This document shows positions 5,793 through 23,616 of a stretch of 64,000 nucleotides of DNA, piece by piece. The translations under genes were made by a program, and so were the position numbers. The notes beneath the pieces are model-generated. The model did no database searches. It had not been told where the DNA came from and saw nothing but the letters and a program-made list of their open reading frames with translations. This DNA is from Chryseobacterium gambrini (GTDB lineage: Bacteria > Bacteroidota > Bacteroidia > Flavobacteriales > Weeksellaceae). Each line of letters begins with the position of its first letter. Position 1 is the stretch's first letter. The DNA lies in assembly GCF_900156825.1 (NCBI RefSeq), contig NZ_FTOV01000008.1, positions 62,001 to 126,000 on the forward strand, given 5' to 3'.

Positions 5793-6230
5793 ATGAAAAA
5801 AGAGCAAAAGGATTTTTCCTACTACCAATTAAAGCTACAGGAACATATAGAAGCGAGTTTTCCTGAAAAATTAGAGGATACGAAATTTATCGCCCAACGG
5901 GCGCGGTGGGCAGCTAATGCTTATGATGGAGCTTTCAGGTCAGGCAACCATATTACTAAATGCGATGAAATAGCCGATTACATACTTTATGAGGGGCTTC
6001 ACTTTTCAAAATTCACTACGCTTTTTGAGGTGCTGACATACGAGTTCAGCGACCTGCTGTTTGATTTTGAATTCAGGGATTTTGCATTAAAAATACTTCC
6101 TACCTGCGAAGAGGTTTTTGCAAAGTATGATCTAACCGATGATTTTGCATATTCAAATGATTATGACCTGCTATACATAGAAATGACAGGTTTCATCGCC
6201 ATATGGATCGAGCAACATGGCATTCAATAA
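5793..6230 (+). CDS. DUF1896 family protein
   Basis: 145 residues, soluble and aromatic-rich. The pattern of an N-terminal [10 protein letters not shown] helix, [10 protein letters not shown], and a C-terminal block ending in [15 protein letters not shown] fits DUF1896, a family known almost only from Bacteroidota conjugative elements and typically placed just ahead of a giant methylase-helicase gene. Its stop overlaps the start of that gene by 14 nt, so the two are translationally coupled and probably act together. No catalytic motif is visible and the function is unknown. Confidence 0.8.
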
Positions 6231-9200
6231 GAGGCAGCACCTCCAGCAGAATATTGATGCTCTGAAAATTGCTTTCAATGTTGAAAATAAAAAACGTAAA
6301 CCAACATCGGGCGAAGAGCAACAATTGTCATTATATGTGGGATTTGGCGGGCTAAAATGTGTGCTTAATCCAGCCGAATTACCAGAAGACATTGAAAAAT
6401 GGAATAGCAGTGAAAAGCCATTGTTTGCTCTGACAAAAGAACTCTACGGTTTATTACGTGAACACGCTAAAAATGATATTGAATATAAAAATTGGGTCAG
6501 CGGTGTTAAGAGTTCTGTATTAGATGCATTCTATACACCAAAAGAAATAACCGAAGTTATCGTGTCAGTAATAGGAGGGGATGATTTAGGAATCAATAAA
6601 GTACTCGAACCCTCAGCGGGTGTTGGCGCCTTTATTCATCCTTTTAAAAACAAAACGAACCTTCGTGTTACGGCCTATGAACAAGATCCTTTGACCGGAA
6701 AGATTTTGAAACTACTGCATCCAGAGGCAGATGTACGAGTGACTGGTTTTGAAAGTATCGCTGATCAGGAAGAAGGACTTTATGACCTAATTGTAAGTAA
6801 TATACCCTTTGGGACGAGTTCCGTATTTGATCTTTCCTTTGCGAGAGGTAAGGATGAAGCACGTAAAATTGCAACCAAAAGTGTTCACAACTATTTCTTT
6901 TTAAAGGCTACAGATAAGCTTAGGGAGGGCGGTATCCTGGCCTTTATAACCTCACAGGGTATTATGGACAGTCCATCCAATCAGCCCGTCCGCGAGGCAC
7001 TGATGCGGGAGCACCTGTTAGTCACTGCAATAAGACTTCCTAATAATCTATTTGAAGGGGCAGGAACGGAGGTAGGGAGTGATCTGATCGTTTTGCAAAA
7101 GAGCAGCGATAGAGATTCGTTATCACATCGGGCAAAAGATTTTATCCATACAGTATCAGGTGACCAGGGTTCACACTGCAATACCTTGTTTTTTAATCCT
7201 AACCATATTGTATCCACCCGATACATTGAGGATACAGATGCATATGGTAAAAAGAGGACAATCTATCTGCATGATGGCGGAACAGAAGGGATCGCCAGTG
7301 ATCTCAAAGAAAAGCTTGCAGCCGATTTCAGCACCTTTTTTAATTTCAAACTATACAATGGTTTTGCTGTTAAAATGGATTCAGATTCGCAACAAAAGGA
7401 TATTTTGCAAACTCCCTTGGGAGGAGATTCTACTTCTAAAAGTAAAAATACACGGAATAATGATGAGCAACCTGTTCAACTAAGTTTATTTTCTGACCAA
7501 CAAATTGATAGTTTTACGCAACGTTCGTTTTCAAAAAAAACAGTTCGTAAAACGAAGCAACAAAGTAAAGTACAGCAACTTTCGTTATTCGAACATGCAT
7601 CTACAAATGATAAGACAAAGACGACAGATTCTGACCAAAGCATCAGAGATAATAATACAAAACGGAGTAAAAAAACTGCTGATCTAAAAGATAATCAATC
7701 GAATAGAGCACATGCGCTTTCTCTTTTTTCAGAAATTACTGAACAGGCCGAACTAATGGAGTCAGTTGTGTTTGAAGGAGAAAAAAAAGAATACTATAGG
7801 GATAACACTTTGGTGGCTTACAATGGTAATGTTGGATCAATCAAATGGAATTTCCGGAAAGGACAGTACATTTTTCACCCGCTTATACTTGCTGTAAAGC
7901 AAAAAAGTAGGATCGAAGATTATATAAAATTTAGGGACTGTTATCATAACTTATATCACTATGAGGTAACTCAGAAAGAAGAAGATACTTTAGGTCGGAG
8001 ATTGCTCAATATTCAGTATGACGCATTTGTAAAGAAATATGGCAATTTAAATGCTGCGGAGAATATCAAAGTTATTAAAACAGATGCTTCGGGAAATGAA
8101 ATCCCTTATCTGGAACGTGTTATTGGAGGAATAATACACAAAGCGGACATTTTTGACCATCCCGTTAGTTTTTCAACTGATGATTTAGCAGTCAATAGCG
8201 CCAGTGAAGCGTTATCGGCTTCCCTTAATCTTTCTGCTAAAGTTGATCTTGATTTCATGTTTAACATTTCTGGAATTTCAGTTGAAGAGCTGAAAGAGCA
8301 GTTGAAAGGAAGGATTTATTTTAATCCGCTCCTGGGATTATACGAAACCTCGCAAACATTTTTATCTGGGAATGTTGTCGAAAAGACAAAGCAGCTTAGC
8401 AAATTTTTTTCGGAGCATGTCACAGACCAACAGGGTGAAGAAAGTTTAAAAGCTCTCCAAGAGGTTCGACCTACTTTAATATCATTTGAAGAGCTGGATT
8501 TTAATCTTGGTGAACGCTGGATTGACACAGACATTTATAGCAGGTTTGCCAGCCATCTTTTTGAAACGAAAGTCTCAATTCAATATACTGAAAGTTCGGA
8601 TGACTTTTCAGTGCAATGCAGCGGCAGCAATATAATCATAACAGAAAAGTATGCGGTAAAGTCAGACAGTAGAAATTTTGACGGACTGAATCTCTTACGG
8701 CATGCATTAGTCAATACCACACCGGATATTACAAAGAAAGCGTATTTAGCAGACGGTACTGAGGTAAAGGTGCGGGATATGGAAGCTATTCAAGCTGCAA
8801 ATAGCAAAATTGATGATATTAGAAGGGCTTTTACGGACTGGTTATTCGACCAAAGTGAAGAATTTAAAGATGGACTCACTGAAAAGTATAATGACTTATT
8901 TAATTGTCATGTGCGGCCACAATACGACGGTAGCCATCAGGCTTTTCCTGGGCTCAACCGAAGAGCTGTAGGTATTGAAGATCTATATGGTAGTCAGAAA
9001 GATGCGGTATGGATGATCAAATGTAATGGTGGCGGGATCTGCGACCACGAGGTTGGTGCTGGAAAGACGTTAATTATGTGTACTGCTGCCCAAGAAATGA
9101 AGCGGCTGGGATTGGTTCATAAGCCGATGATTATTGCTTTAAAAGCCAATGTACATGAAATCGCCGAGACTTATCGCAAAGCATATCCCCACGCCAAACT

Positions 9201-11565
9201 ATTATATCCTGGAAAAAAGGATTTTACTCCGCAGAACCGACTGAGAATCTTCGGCGAAATAAAAAATAATGATTGGGACTGTATTATTCTTACGCATGAG
9301 CAGTTCAGTATGATTCCCCAATCGTCAGAACTTCAAAAAGAAATTTTGAATATTGAACTGGAAGGAATTGAGCGTAATCTTGAAGTTTTGAGATCGCAGG
9401 GTAAAGATGTTTCCGGTGCAATGCTTAAAGGAGTTGAGATCAGGAAAAAAAACCTAAATGTAAAGCTGAAAATCCTGGAAAGCGACATTGAAAACCGAAA
9501 AGATGATGTGGTTGACTTTAAAATGATGTGTATTGACCACTTGTTCGTGGACGAGAGCCACCGATTTAAAAACCTGATGTTCAATACCCGGCATGAACGT
9601 GTTGCAGGATTGGGAAATGCACAGGGGAGTCAGCGGGCTTTAAATCTACTGTTTGCAATCAGAACCATACAGGAGCGTACGGGGAAAGATCTTGGAGCCA
9701 CCTTTTTGTCAGGTACCACAATAAGTAATTCTTTAACGGAGCTATATCTGTTGTTCAAATACCTGCGTCCAAAAGCACTGGAAAGACAGGGGATAAACTG
9801 TTTCGACGCATGGGCGGCAATTTATGCTCGAAAATCGGTTGATTATGAATTTTCGGTAGCCAATAATATTGTTCAAAAAGAAAGGTTCAGGCATTTCATT
9901 AAGGTTCCTGAACTGGCGCAATTTTATTCGGAGATAACAGACTATAGGACAGCTAAGGATATAGGAATTGACCGTCCTGAGAAAAAAGAAAGCTTAGTTC
10001 ATATCCCCCCAACACCGGATCAGGAAAGATTCATAAAGAAATTAATGGAGTTCGCGGAAACCGGAAAGGCCGAATTGTTGGGAAGAGAGCCACTTTCTCC
10101 GACAGAAGAGAAAGCTAAAATGTTGATCGCAACAGATTATGCGCGGAAAATGTCGCTTGATATGCGTATGATCTCCTCTGAGTACGGTGATCACCCCGGT
10201 AATAAGGCATCTGTTTGTGCCGCGAACCTTGCCAAATATTATAGAAGATTCGATGCTCAAAAAGGGACACAATTTGTTTTTTCAGACTTGGGAACCTACA
10301 AGCCGGATCAGTGGAATATTTACTCGGAAATCAAGGGCAAGCTAATGCATGACTATGATATTCCGGCTCATCAGATCCGCTTTATCCAGGAGGCTAAAAC
10401 TGGCGACCATCGGAAAGAACTTATTAAAGCTACCAATGAGGGAAAAATACGGATACTCTTTGGTTCAACGGAAATGCTGGGTACGGGTGTTAATGCTCAA
10501 AAGCGTGCGGTCGCTGTACATCATCTGGATATTCCTTGGCGGCCTTCTGATCTGGCCCAGCGTGATGGACGTGCCATAAGAAAGGGGAATGAGATTGCCA
10601 AGCACTTTGGAAACAATATAGTAGATGTCTTTATTTATGCCGTTGAAAAGTCTTTAGACAGCTACAAATTTAACACACTATATAATAAACAGATTTTTAT
10701 TGACCAATTGAAGAGTAATAATGTAGGTGTGCGGACTATCGATGAGGGAGCCATGGATGAAAAAACGGGAATGAGCTATTCGGAGTATCAGGCTATTTTG
10801 TCAGGTAACACAGATTTGCTGGAGAAAGCTAAATTGCAGAAGCGGATTGCAGCCCTCGAAGGAGAAAAAATGTCATTCATGCGGTCTAAGAGAAGTTCAT
10901 TATATAAACTTGAAACTATTTCAGAAGATTTGAAGACTGGCAAGTCACTTCTTGAACGTCTAAAAACAGATTGGACTAATTTTAATGAACGTGTTAAAAA
11001 AACTGATACTGGAAACATTATAAACGCTATTAGTCTCGATGGCTTGAATGAAAAGGCTACAGTGAAAGAAATCGGTGACCACCTGAATAAGTTATCATTT
11101 ACTATGAGAACAGGAGGAGATTATAGGGAAATTGGCTCATTATATGGCTTTAGACTTTTGGTGAAAACAGAATTTTCTGAAAAGAAGGATTCTTTAGAAA
11201 GAGATAACCGTTTTTTCATCAGTGGTGAAGGTAACTTAAAATACACACATAATAATGGAATTATGGCAAGTGACCCGGAGCGTGCTTCCTTGAATTTTCT
11301 AAGCGCTTTGCAGAAGATTCCGGGATTGATAGAAGTGGAGGAAAAGAAGGTTTCTGCATTAACAAAAGATGAGCTGGTACTTCGTGAAATTGTATCTGGA
11401 GACTGGAAAAAGGACGGAAGTTTAGAGGAGTTGAGAATTCAGTTAGCTGCGATGGAGCGGAAAATCCTATTATCCCTGGATGCGGGTAAAGAGAACGTTC
11501 GACAAGTAGAAGATATTGTAACAAAGAATGAACCTTCAAAAAAAATATCGCATCTTAAACCGTGA
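6217..11565 (+). CDS. N6-adenine methylase / SNF2-type helicase fusion
   Basis: 1,782 residues. The N-terminal methylase has an SAM-binding EPSAGVGAF (131-139) and a catalytic NIPFG (195-199) where many enzymes have NPPF. A disordered linker of about 380-510 carries QLSLF at 421-425 and 454-458 and ALSLF at 500-504, which look like sliding-clamp-binding peptides. The SF2 helicase part has VGAGKT near 946, a DESH box near 1112, LSGTT, and [11 protein letters not shown] near 1448. A coiled-coil-rich tail follows. The family is typical of CTnDOT-like ICEs. Likely roles are modification of the element's DNA and remodelling or protection during transfer; both are inference. Coupled to the DUF1896 gene. 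Confidence 0.85.
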
Positions 11566-20717: not shown

Positions 20718-21053
20718 ATGAAGTATCATATCAATAAAGGAATAGGAAGGACGGTTGAATTCAAAGGTTTGAAAGCTCAATATCTTTTTGTTTTCGCCGG
20801 TGGACTGCTTACAGTTCTCATTCTTGTGATGATCATGTATATGGCTGGAATTCATACGTACATCTGTTTGAGTTTCGGAATCGGTGCTGCATCAATTATA
20901 ATCTGGAAAACTTTCGCACTTAATGCAAAATATGGTGAGCATGGGCTAATGAAACTTGGTGCAAGAAGGGTGCATCCCCGATACATTATTTGCCGTAAAC
21001 CAGTCCATAGGTATTTAAAAAGAAATCTCACCACCAAAAAACAAATTTTATGA
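20718..21053 (+). CDS. traF: TraF (DUF4133), VirB3-like membrane protein
   Basis: 111 residues from the ATG at 20718; the longer open frame reaches back into traE and is not needed. Two closely spaced hydrophobic helices (about 26-66) and a basic C-terminus (RYLKRNLTTKK) fit DUF4133/TraF, the VirB3-like partner of the TraG ATPase. Its stop overlaps the traG start by 4 nt (ATGA), implying coupled translation. Confidence 0.86.
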   Translation: MKYHINKGIGRTVEFKGLKAQYLFVFAGGLLTVLILVMIMYMAGIHTYICLSFGIGAASIIIWKTFALNAKYGEHGLMKLGARRVHPRYIICRKPVHRYLKRNLTTKKQIL

Positions 21054-22417
21054 GAAACATATCCAAAACGACCACCTTGGAAAGTAGATTTCCATTGCTG
21101 GCAGTAGAAAATAATTGCATCATCTCAAAGGAAGGAGATATCACGCTATGTTTTCAAATTTTTCTTCCTGAGCTCTTCACCGTAGGAGCAGATGTTTACG
21201 AATCTATTCATTCTACATGGAGCAAGGCTGTAAAAACACTTCCTGATTTTACCATTGTGCATAAGCAGGATTGGTACTTAAAAGAAAAATATAGACCCGA
21301 CTTAGAAAATGCTGAGCACAGTTTTTTATCGCGCTCCTTTCAAATGCATTTTAACGAACGCCCTTTTTTAAATCACTACTGCTATGTTTTTATAACCAAA
21401 ACTACTAAAGATAGGATGCGCATGCAAAGCAATTTCAGTAGTCTTTGTAAGGGAAACTTAATCTCAAAGGAGGTAAGAGATAGGGAAGGTATGCGACGAT
21501 TTGTAGAGAACGTTGCGCAATTCCAGCGTATCATCAATGACAGTGGATACATCAAAATGAATCAGCTCGAAGAGTCTGACATTATCGGTACTAAAGATGG
21601 TCGTGGATTATTGGATCAGTATTTCACACTATCACGCGAAAAAGATGTACCCTTAGAAGATCTGGCACTCGGTGCCGAGGAACTAAGAATTGGAAGCAAC
21701 CGAATGGTATTGCATGCTCTTTCAGATACCGATGATCTACCCGGTGCCGTTTCTGAATCGCAACGCTATGACAGATTATCGACCGACAGAAGTGACTGTA
21801 TGTTATCCTTTGCCTCCCCGGTTGGTCTAATGTTGAGCTGTAATCACATTTATAATCAATACCTCTTCATTGACAATAGTTCCGATAACTTACGAAAGTT
21901 CGAAAAATCTGCCCGTAATATGCATTCACTCGCAAGATATAGCCGTGCCAATCAGATAAATAGGGAATGGATCGAAAGGTATTTGAATGAGGCACATTCT
22001 CATGGGTCTCCTTCTATTCGGGCGCATTTCAATGTATTTGCCTGGTCTGAAGATCGAGAAGAATTACGACAAATAAAGAACGATGTAGGAAGTGCCCTGG
22101 CATTGATGGAATGTAAACCACGTCACAACACAGTTGACGCTGCCACATTATTTTGGGCGGGGATACCCGGCAACGCAGGTGACTTCCCCTCTGAAGAATC
22201 CTTTTACACCTTCATTGAACCAGCTCTTTGCTTTTTTACAGAGGAAACGAACTATAAGGATTCATTGTCGCCATTTGGGATCAAACTCGCAGATAGGCTG
22301 ACTGGTAAGCCAATTCATTTGGATATTTCGGACTTGCCTATGAAAAAAGGTATTATTACCAATAGAAACCGTTTCATTCTGGGGCCATCTGGGGGTTGGC
22401 GGGCTACCCTTAATTGA
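21050..22417 (+). CDS. traG: TraG (VirB4-like ATPase), N-terminal part, split
   Basis: The first 455 codons of traG. The sequence from MRNISKTTTLESRFPLL to RNRFILGPSG follows the CTnDOT TraG/VirB4 family, which energises channel assembly at the inner membrane. Right after GPSG, where SGKSFF should complete Walker A, the frame enters a 53-nt insert with a hairpin and ends at TGA 22415-22417. Everything upstream looks intact and conserved in style. Removing the insert would restore a single frame of about 838 residues, a usual TraG length. Either the gene is broken, or ribosomes or RNA processing skip the insert. Coupled to traF. Confidence 0.85.
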   Translation: MRNISKTTTLESRFPLLAVENNCIISKEGDITLCFQIFLPELFTVGADVYESIHSTWSKAVKTLPDFTIVHKQDWYLKEKYRPDLENAEHSFLSRSFQMHFNERPFLNHYCYVFITKTTKDRMRMQSNFSSLCKGNLISKEVRDREGMRRFVENVAQFQRIINDSGYIKMNQLEESDIIGTKDGRGLLDQYFTLSREKDVPLEDLALGAEELRIGSNRMVLHALSDTDDLPGAVSESQRYDRLSTDRSDCMLSFASPVGLMLSCNHIYNQYLFIDNSSDNLRKFEKSARNMHSLARYSRANQINREWIERYLNEAHSHGSPSIRAHFNVFAWSEDREELRQIKNDVGSALALMECKPRHNTVDAATLFWAGIPGNAGDFPSEESFYTFIEPALCFFTEETNYKDSLSPFGIKLADRLTGKPIHLDISDLPMKKGIITNRNRFILGPSGGWRATLN

Positions 22418-22443
22418 GTAGCCCGCCAACCCTCCAAAAAAAT
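22391..22443 (+). other. 53-nt hairpin insert in the traG Walker A codons
   Basis: GGGTTGGCGGGCTAC (22393-22407) and GTAGCCCGCCAACCC (22418-22432) form a perfect 15-bp stem with a 10-nt loop. A CTCC plus seven-A tract follows. Cutting out 53 nt joins TCT directly to GGA AGT GGA AAA, restoring P-S-G-S-G-K-S. TGG occurs at both ends (22390-22392 and 22443-22445). The loop has a stop in each of the two traG frames: TAA 22411-22413 and TGA 22415-22417. A glycine codon lies on each side, GGG at 22391 and GGA at 22444, exactly 50 nt apart. Confidence 0.85.
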
Positions 22444-23616
22444 GGAAGTGGAAAATCATTCTTCACCAACCACATGGTGAGACAGTATTATGAACAAGGG
22501 ACGCATGTACTTTTAGTGGACACTGGAAATTCTTATCAGGGTTTATGTGAGCTTATCAAAGGAAAAACGAAAGGCGGTGATGGCGTTTATTTTACTTACA
22601 CCGAAGATAATCCGATTGCGTTCAACCCTTTCTTCACGGACGATAATGTGTTTGACATCGAAAAAAGAGAGAGCATCAAGACGCTTATCCTTACCCTTTG
22701 GAAACGTGATGACGAAGCGCCGAGGCGTAGTGAAGAGGTGGCTTTGTCAAATGCGGTTGCGGGATACATCGAGCAAATAAAATCATCCTCTGTTCAACCA
22801 AGTTTTAATGGCTTTTATGAATATGTGAAAGGAGATTATAGAAGGGTCCTTCAGGAAAAGGAAGTCCGCGAAAAAGATTTCGACCTGGCAAATTTTCTAA
22901 ATGTGCTGGAACCATATTACAAAGGTGGAGAATATGACTATTTACTAAACTCAGAAAAAGAGCTTGATTTGCTTAATAAGAGATTTATTGTTTTTGAAAT
23001 TGATGCAATAAAAGATCATAAAATTCTATTTCCTGTTGTGACAATAATCATAATGGAAACCTTTATAAATAAGATGCGTAGGTTAAAAGGTGTTCGTAAA
23101 ATGATACTAATTGAAGAAGCCTGGAAGGCCATTGCGAAGGAAGGAATGGCGGAATATTTAAAGTATCTCTTTAAAACGGTTAGGAAGTTTTTTGGCGAAG
23201 CCGTAGTGGTAACCCAGGAAGTGGACGACATTATTCATTCACCGATTGTACGTGAAAGTATTATTAATAATTCAGACTGCAAGATACTGCTCGATCAACG
23301 AAAGTACGCTAATAAGTTTGATGATATTCAAAAAATGCTGGGGCTGACCGAACGCGAAAAATCTCAGATTTTAAGTATTAATCAGGATAATGACCCCACA
23401 CGCCTCTACAAAGAAGTTTGGATCGGTTTAGGTGGAACGCATTCCGCAGTATATGCCACAGAAGTTAGCCACCACGAGTATTTGGCGTATACAACTGAAG
23501 AATCTGAAAAATTAGAAGTGATGAATCTTGCGCAGGAAATGGGTGGCGATGTTGAGGGAGCAATCAAGAAAATATCCTTACGAAGGATCAAGGGACTGTC
23601 GAGAGAAGACAATTAA
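22414..23616 (+). CDS. traG: TraG (VirB4-like ATPase), C-terminal part, split
   Basis: The remaining coding part of traG, in a frame shifted from the first. Useful sequence begins at GSGKSFFTNHMVRQYYEQG (from 22444) and contains Walker B LIEEAWKAI, VVVTQEVDDI, and the ordinary TraG C-terminus. A TTG at 22414 overlaps the first part's TGA (TTGA), so stop-restart translation is conceivable. That product would have PTLQKNGSGKS, lacking the first Walker A glycine. The rest shows no decay, which argues for either a very recent lesion or a mechanism that joins the parts. Confidence 0.85.
   Translation: MSSPPTLQKNGSGKSFFTNHMVRQYYEQGTHVLLVDTGNSYQGLCELIKGKTKGGDGVYFTYTEDNPIAFNPFFTDDNVFDIEKRESIKTLILTLWKRDDEAPRRSEEVALSNAVAGYIEQIKSSSVQPSFNGFYEYVKGDYRRVLQEKEVREKDFDLANFLNVLEPYYKGGEYDYLLNSEKELDLLNKRFIVFEIDAIKDHKILFPVVTIIIMETFINKMRRLKGVRKMILIEEAWKAIAKEGMAEYLKYLFKTVRKFFGEAVVVTQEVDDIIHSPIVRESIINNSDCKILLDQRKYANKFDDIQKMLGLTEREKSQILSINQDNDPTRLYKEVWIGLGGTHSAVYATEVSHHEYLAYTTEESEKLEVMNLAQEMGGDVEGAIKKISLRRIKGLSREDN

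Follow-up and report, generated by a model that had tools for sequence, protein, structure and literature searches.

The mitochondrial genes of the yeast Magnusiomyces capitatus harbor mobile hairpin inserts known as byp elements, and it is with these, with gene 60 of phage T4 and with an adhesin gene of Prevotella loescheii, a member of the Bacteroidota, that we compare here the traG gene of a CTnDOT-like conjugative element lying in a 64,000-nt stretch of Chryseobacterium gambrini DNA (hereafter the window). Besides T4 gene 60 and the inserts of yeast mitochondria, the long bypass cases named in the available text of a review are suggestive genes of Streptomyces phages and the Prevotella report (PMC5009743). 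In gene 60, as outlined in the accessible part of another paper, the take-off and landing codons both encode glycine, a stem-loop marks the take-off site, the gap measures ~50 nt and a further stem-loop lies on the 3' side (PMC11194080). In the mitochondria of M. capitatus, by the review text, 12 of 15 protein genes contain bypass sites, 81 in all, and the codons of take-off and landing are not always matched; for the P. loescheii adhesin a 29-nt translational hop was reported that, according to the reviewers, was never followed up (PMC5009743).

The element in the window carries mobA/mobB, traG, traJ, traK, traM and traN, and its TraG belongs to the CTnDOT-type TraG ATPase family (TIGR03783 / PF19044). 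This traG is open in two frames, open reading frame 1 (ORF1) from 21050 to 22417 and a second frame from a TTG at 22414 to 23616; the Pfam model DUF3875 and positions 1–41 of the Pfam model P-loop_TraG match the first part, and positions 37–409 of the latter match the second. Between the GPSG and the SGKS of the Walker A motif stands a perfect 15-bp stem (22393–22407 with 22418–22432) closed by a 10-nt loop. The stem begins at the last base of a glycine codon, GGG, which is separated by exactly 50 nt from a second glycine codon, GGA, and the gap together with this one extra codon makes up the 53 nt that a bypass requires. An initial annotation of this DNA had described the stem, its loop, both glycine codons, their spacing and the stops of the two traG frames within the loop, all of which were confirmed on the sequence (Table 1). 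It had also proposed a byp-like bypass element. We think it probable, judging from the sequence and from analogy with T4 gene 60, that traG carries a programmed translational bypass cassette yielding one whole TraG; to the original argument the recurrence of the insert, its conserved codons and a landing stem-loop add support, while the bypass itself is what we infer from them.

The hairpin exceeds what chance would produce. The segment 22391–22434 has a folding energy of -36.5 kcal/mol (z -7.85), equaled by none of 200 shuffles, and no other of the seven inverted repeats reported in 31 kb of the element (at least 12 nt long, with up to 60 nt between the arms) is perfect; its exact arms are present once in the window's genome. 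All 150 stem cells are paired in 10 sequences and 13 of the 15 pairs are invariant, the other two varying on one side only (U-A to U-G and U-G to C-G), with pairing on the mRNA strand kept via U-G. A terminator of the + strand was considered and rejected, since no T run follows the hairpin.

The same hairpin, at the same Walker A codon of traG, is found at 22 places in 19 genomes of three orders (Flavobacteriales, Sphingobacteriales and Chitinophagales), a count that joins 12 matches to a hairpin pattern with 15 matches to the hairpin core, 5 places in 4 genomes being common to both. A search for the stem-loop in the traG genes of relatives, which the initial annotation had called for, thus finds it repeatedly; that annotation had also named, as a finding that would refute its proposal, relatives all lacking the insert, and relatives whose DNA is as little as 76% identical to the window in fact have it. 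In a DNA search of 99 related genomes, 35 matched and the insert was spanned at 8 places in 6 of those. The pattern search of 320 genomes of the family gave its 12 places in 10 genomes of a single genus; the same pattern read backwards, as a control, matched 8 of the 320 genomes as against 10 for the true pattern, so that the position of the matches, all 12 of which sit in traG at the same codon, weighs more than their number. In GTDB r220 contigs the scan matched the core at 15 places, again all at the one traG site, the 13 named genomes that hold them being Sphingobacterium multivorum, S. corticibacter, S. humi (two), S. wenxiniae, Parapedobacter defluvii, Niabella defluvii and a Chitinophagaceae metagenome-assembled genome, together with Myroides sp. 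1354, Flavobacterium erciyesense, Chryseobacterium pennae (two), C. ureilyticum, C. sp. JUb7 and C. sp. ZHDP1. No copy outside the traG site occurs among these 15 core matches, a scan in which a core of altered sequence would be missed.

Wider searches delimit this distribution. A pattern scan of 375 genomes of the phylum matched two, one being the centre genome and the other giving a match with the coordinates of that in the insert-bearing genome G120. A covariance model run on 395 genomes of the class, with stricter filters, matched 11 genomes and found the insert in G000 and G120 only; the other traG places that it matched are insert-free. All 38 insert-free traG loci compared (37 places, L109 and L115 being one gene) encode GPSGSGKS in one frame, and at one of them, L113 from Niabella, the frame breaks a few codons beyond the motif. 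In plasmid and phage collections no place covered 80% of an 83-nt cassette query, and traG relatives matching a longer stretch of the gene were present there; a loose hairpin pattern gave 19 matches in viral contigs, set aside as lying in other contexts, judged by their printed flanks, and a pattern of the 3' part gave no matches. The covariance model also matched, in another genome of the class, an intergenic terminator-like hairpin (L140:1510-1560) whose loop, CTTAATCGAG, resembles the loop of the traG hairpin, CTTAATTGAG. The traG insert may be descended from a terminator.

The insert-bearing copies vary in the length of the gap and are constant in its borders. The proposed take-off GGG and landing GGA are both present in 22 of 22 copies, where 33 distinct intact copies use GGA, GGT or GGC for the same glycine. 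The gap is 50 nt long in 13 copies, 47 in seven, 49 in one and 46 in one. This last value, from Niabella, was discarded as unreliable because several TraG copies are broken in that genome (G360, Niabella defluvii I65); the stops that break them suggest indel errors in its assembly. The 49-nt copy, in ZHDP1, differs from the copy in G137 by the sole indel that falls inside a long open reading frame over 11 kb at 97.5% identity. The first half of the gene is open for at least 447 codons in 21 of the 22 copies (Niabella being the exception) and the second for at least 388 codons in 19. In F. erciyesense (L120), identity to the S. multivorum element stops abruptly ~300 nt past the hairpin, within the second half of traG, and another TraG free of internal stops lies at most 7 kb from the split gene.

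Both halves of traG are, by the evidence of the sequences, under purifying selection. Leaving out F. erciyesense, S. multivorum and Niabella, dropping pairs with fewer than 10 synonymous differences and scoring saturated pairs (many of them in clade A) as 0, the ratio of nonsynonymous to synonymous change (dN/dS) does not exceed 0.151 for the N half and 0.069 for the C half in clade A; in clade B the corresponding maxima are 0.042 and 0.111. The clades are those seen in trees of each half, in which the insert-bearing copies fall into separate groups: clade A unites Chryseobacterium, F. erciyesense and S. multivorum, and clade B the other Sphingobacterium copies, Parapedobacter, Myroides and the Chitinophagaceae, adjoining the intact copies L025 and L112. 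The N-half tree holds 21 insert-bearing rows and the C-half tree 20, with Niabella absent from both and F. erciyesense from the latter; in the C-half tree the Chitinophagaceae copy groups with intact L025, away from the remainder of clade B. The insert state changes twice on the N-half tree and three times on the C-half tree, in a direction (gain or loss) that the trees do not distinguish, and a single clade of insert-bearing copies is rejected for the N half (p 0.034, for a group named after the data had been seen).

Copy b of Chryseobacterium genome G032 and the S. multivorum copy, from two different orders, align over 14,002 columns at 99.9% identity, insert included, which means that this stretch of the element spreads with the insert in place. 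The recurrence of the insert rules out a fresh insertion or an assembly error; the fresh disruptive insertion that the initial annotation had listed as an alternative fits neither the spread, nor the low dN/dS of both halves, nor so recent a transfer between orders. A finer mosaic is visible in the S. wenxiniae copy of clade B. Its identity to the intact copies L025 and L112 is mostly 76–97% along the gene (two far L112 bins give 69 and 70), as against 68–73% in the bins of 25 codons that flank the insert, and the bin downstream of the insert reaches 88–90% identity to clade A; the upstream bin, at 66–76%, is not clearly better. So it would appear from the sequence that the insert reached clade B with a short clade A-like tract, or that constraint reshaped the codons of the site, or both. 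The pattern suggests that a cassette made up of the gap and short flanks was transferred between traG lineages through recombination.

The codons around the insert were compared between 20 distinct insert-bearing copies (two duplicates having been removed from the 22) and 33 distinct intact copies (from 38 loci, with four left out and one duplicate removed). Counting from the landing codon, codons 0–3 (GGA AGT GGA AAA), 6–7 (TTC ACC), 11 (GTG) and 14–15 (TAT TAT) are fixed in all 20 insert-bearing copies and none of them in the intact copies; codon 20 (CAT) is likewise fixed among the 20. Codons 8 and 9 (AAY CAY), on the other hand, vary at the third base. This pattern of frozen arms and free loop is the picture of a stem-loop, TCACCA-N6-TGGTGA, as the codons have it, in which all 60 cells are paired and zero pairs vary. 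Across seven chosen lineages, 10 of 15 usable codons are identical at positions 0–15 versus five of 81 at positions 16–119 (Fisher p 6e-7, an optimistic value, as both the codon boundary and the lineages were picked after inspecting the data); for 2000 random sets of seven intact copies the same stretch has a mean of 0.52 identical codons and a maximum of 4. Upstream of the insert, positions -1 and -11 are fixed, that is, two of 12 usable codons in the last 15 versus three of 74 further away, and an arginine at -8 is found in 19 of the 20 insert-bearing copies and in none of the 33 intact ones, all of which have lysine. An overlapping short frame starting from the A run was rejected as the cause of the frozen codons, because the loop variants would change its residues and its ATG is absent in the 47-nt copies.

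Table 1. Features of the interrupted traG gene, with positions counted from the first nucleotide of the window.
Feature	Position	Strand	Basis
traG 5' coding part, 448 codons, the last being GGG	21050..22393	+	ORF call, translation, Pfam (DUF3875; P-loop_TraG, first positions)
Proposed take-off codon GGG (Gly)	22391..22393	+	GGG in 22/22 insert-bearing copies
Take-off stem-loop, 15-bp stem, 10-nt loop holding the stops of both frames	22393..22432	+	fold z -7.85; stem pairing
Non-coding gap, 50 nt	22394..22443	+	sequence; copies compared
Loop stops TAA (frame 2, 22411-22413) and TGA (frame 1, 22415-22417); TTG 22414-22416, candidate restart codon	22411..22417	+	sequence
Proposed landing codon GGA (Gly)	22444..22446	+	GGA in 22/22
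Landing block, codons 0-15, synonymous change suppressed	22444..22491	+	codon identity across lineages
traG 3' coding part, SGKS to stop	22447..23616	+	ORF call, translation, Pfam
Conserved 3' stem-loop TCACCA / TGGTGA, 6-nt loop	22463..22480	+	codon constraint, pairing

From the anatomy, conservation, selection, spread and mosaic pattern of the insert we infer a course of stalling, take-off, landing and production of a single protein. The ribosome would translate ORF1 as far as the GGG glycine codon of Walker A (GPSG), where the very stable stem-loop that starts at this codon would stall it. The peptidyl-tRNA-Gly would then detach, 47–50 nt would be skipped unread, and the same tRNA-Gly would re-pair at GGA, with decoding resumed at AGT, the serine of SGKS. 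The small stem-loop ~20 nt past the landing codon might help to halt and position the ribosome, as does the 3' stem-loop of T4 gene 60. The product would be a single TraG of ~837 residues with an unbroken Walker A, and ribosomes that fail to hop would terminate at the TGA in the loop, leaving an N-terminal fragment. Tentatively, and with somewhat less than even confidence, we would go further and propose a mobile bacterial bypass cassette of ~110 nt (take-off codon, large hairpin, landing codon and small 3' hairpin) that is passed among traG lineages through recombination, in a homing-like transfer with short flanks, and that spreads with conjugative elements across three orders of the Bacteroidota.

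Two T4-like features go beyond those in the initial annotation, namely the stem-loop just after the landing codon and the glycine tRNAs. ARAGORN, given 30 host loci that cover part of the 80 tRNA matches of the genome, predicts tRNA-Gly with anticodon UCC four times, GCC once, one odd ACC and no CCC. By standard wobble, tRNA-Gly(UCC) reads both GGG and GGA. The same genome contains a cluster of unusual tRNA predictions (L183, G000:C24:140400-145200) with undecided anticodons and one Gly(ACC), perhaps phage-borne or decayed.

Several observations weigh against a programmed bypass. There is no stop directly 3' of the take-off GGG, the next codon being GGT and the TGA, in the loop, coming after seven sense codons; the 61 nt upstream fold like shuffles (z 0.25) and yielded no 5' stem-loop; the take-off and landing codons are synonymous rather than identical; and no KKYK-like nascent-peptide motif is shown, although the arginine at -8 marks 19 of the 20 copies. 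The folding energy of the 3' stem-loop is weak (z -0.06 in the window and -1.18 in S. wenxiniae), and the structure rests on constraint rather than covariation, with 0 pairs changed on both sides and shuffles matching the observed score; the local conservation could be in part a shared recombination tract. The second half of the gene is broken in three of the 22 copies (G120 at 340 codons, F. erciyesense at 85 and Niabella at 108), and the 49-nt gap of ZHDP1 may reflect a true mutation or else a sequencing error of one base in the A run. Finally, 16 of the 19 hosts, the window's genome (C19) included, have a further TraG match at E 0 that is free of internal stops, and help in trans from an uninterrupted TraG is possible in most hosts.

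This last point, together with the three broken second halves and the apparent movement of the cassette between lineages, is what one would expect if the hairpin were an inactivating passenger, traG being dead or conditional, TraG being supplied by another element and the insert persisting via recombination. We regard this as unlikely. Purifying selection is evident in both halves, at high synonymous divergence, and, of the three hosts without such a TraG, Chryseobacterium sp. JUb7 (G043, a draft genome) has no TraG match beyond the two halves, C. pennae (G052) has only distant ones of ~1025 residues, and S. multivorum (G359) has only a distant one in two pieces. Moreover, one would not expect a passenger insert to have frozen stem arms next to loop codons that vary, which counts against that reading; a second TraG would explain survival in most hosts and leave the frozen landing zone unexplained. 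A ribosomal hop is, by comparison, the simplest account of the unbroken Walker A, the gap lengths that do not depend on frame, the fixed glycine codons and the structured landing zone taken together. The first two of these would follow equally if 50–53 nt were cut from the mRNA, as a miniature intron rejoined by enzymes of the host or the element, and the continuous message were then read: a single frame is restored at any gap length (50, 49 or 47), and conserved sequence around the insert is compatible with such removal. However, excision requires no pair of glycine codons readable by a single tRNA and no conserved stem-loop within the 3' coding part, and accounts for neither the fixed codons nor the landing zone. 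In the 3 kb searched no Rfam family passes its cut-off, the only two matches (E 0.88 and 0.94) falling far below and on the opposite strand. To our knowledge, 50 nt is too short for the known self-splicing introns, and we know of no bacterial enzyme for mRNA splicing of this kind; we would give RNA removal only a slim chance.

The remaining possibilities accept the loop stops as they are read or circumvent them without a hop. The initial annotation had considered that ORF1 might stop at its TGA and translation restart at the overlapping TTG, giving two polypeptides and a split TraG that works as a heterodimer, and most copies do have the TTGA overlap and two open halves. This alternative is now weakened and seems to us rather improbable: C. 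pennae copy a has CTG at the position of the restart codon; in the 49-nt ZHDP1 copy the frame of the second half runs into a TAG within the stem and offers no start codon ahead of SGKS; and a restart product would be without the first glycine of Walker A. Among 375 genomes of the class, in each of which up to two candidates were scored, TraG matches over cut-off contain an internal stop only in the insert-bearing G000 and G120 and in G427, where the break lies elsewhere; this also speaks against a split TraG. A -1 ribosomal frameshift in the 4-nt overlap would join the frames at the cost of ~17 extra residues inside the P-loop, and in copies with gaps of 50 and 47 nt the second frame does lie at -1 relative to the first; but the overlap contains no slippery heptamer, the 49-nt copy has another frame relation and the product would carry an insertion within Walker A, so that we attach almost no weight to it. 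Elsewhere in the window, at 6217–11565, a 1782-residue protein has weak, sub-cut-off matches to anti-phage methyltransferase/helicase families (MADS2, DISARM) and is possibly a defense gene borne by the element.

If a programmed bypass is indeed at work in traG, it would be one under selection in the motor protein of spreading conjugative elements, and hence a bacterial case with natural variants. These variants (gaps of 50, 49 and 47 nt and changed stems) would allow the generality of each part of the T4 machinery to be tested by comparison. Functional conjugation genes might also appear broken to gene callers.

As for precedent, no conjugative element stands among the bypass cases in the available text of the review cited above (PMC5009743), and the main text of a survey of frame transitions, in the portion accessible to us, mentions neither TraG nor any word in "conjug" (PMC3711429). 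Among the papers listed in searches of titles and abstracts, in literature without preprints and most subscription journals, none describes a bypass in a conjugative element. The CTnDOT-type TraG family (TIGR03783 / PF19044) provides the same host gene, and there all 38 other loci compared are without the insert. With the inserts of M. capitatus, so far as the available review text describes them, the traG insert would share its shortness, its being skipped in translation and the continued working of the interrupted genes (PMC5009743); it differs in occupying one site of one bacterial gene, with constant codons. The P. loescheii adhesin would be alike in being a reported hop in the Bacteroidota, and differs in gene and length. 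The closest likeness is to T4 gene 60, with which, on the accessible parts of both sources, traG shares the ~50-nt gap, the glycine codons, the take-off stem-loop, a stem-loop early in ORF2 and ORFs that are out of frame with each other (PMC11194080, PMC5009743). In contrast to gene 60, traG has GGG/GGA rather than GGA/GGA, with no adjacent stop, no 5' stem-loop found and no clear KKYK signal. The stem of gene 60 is also shorter than the 15-bp stem of traG. Finally, traG is a different gene, in another host phylum and another kind of element, and its insert occurs in many species, with apparent movement between lineages of the gene.

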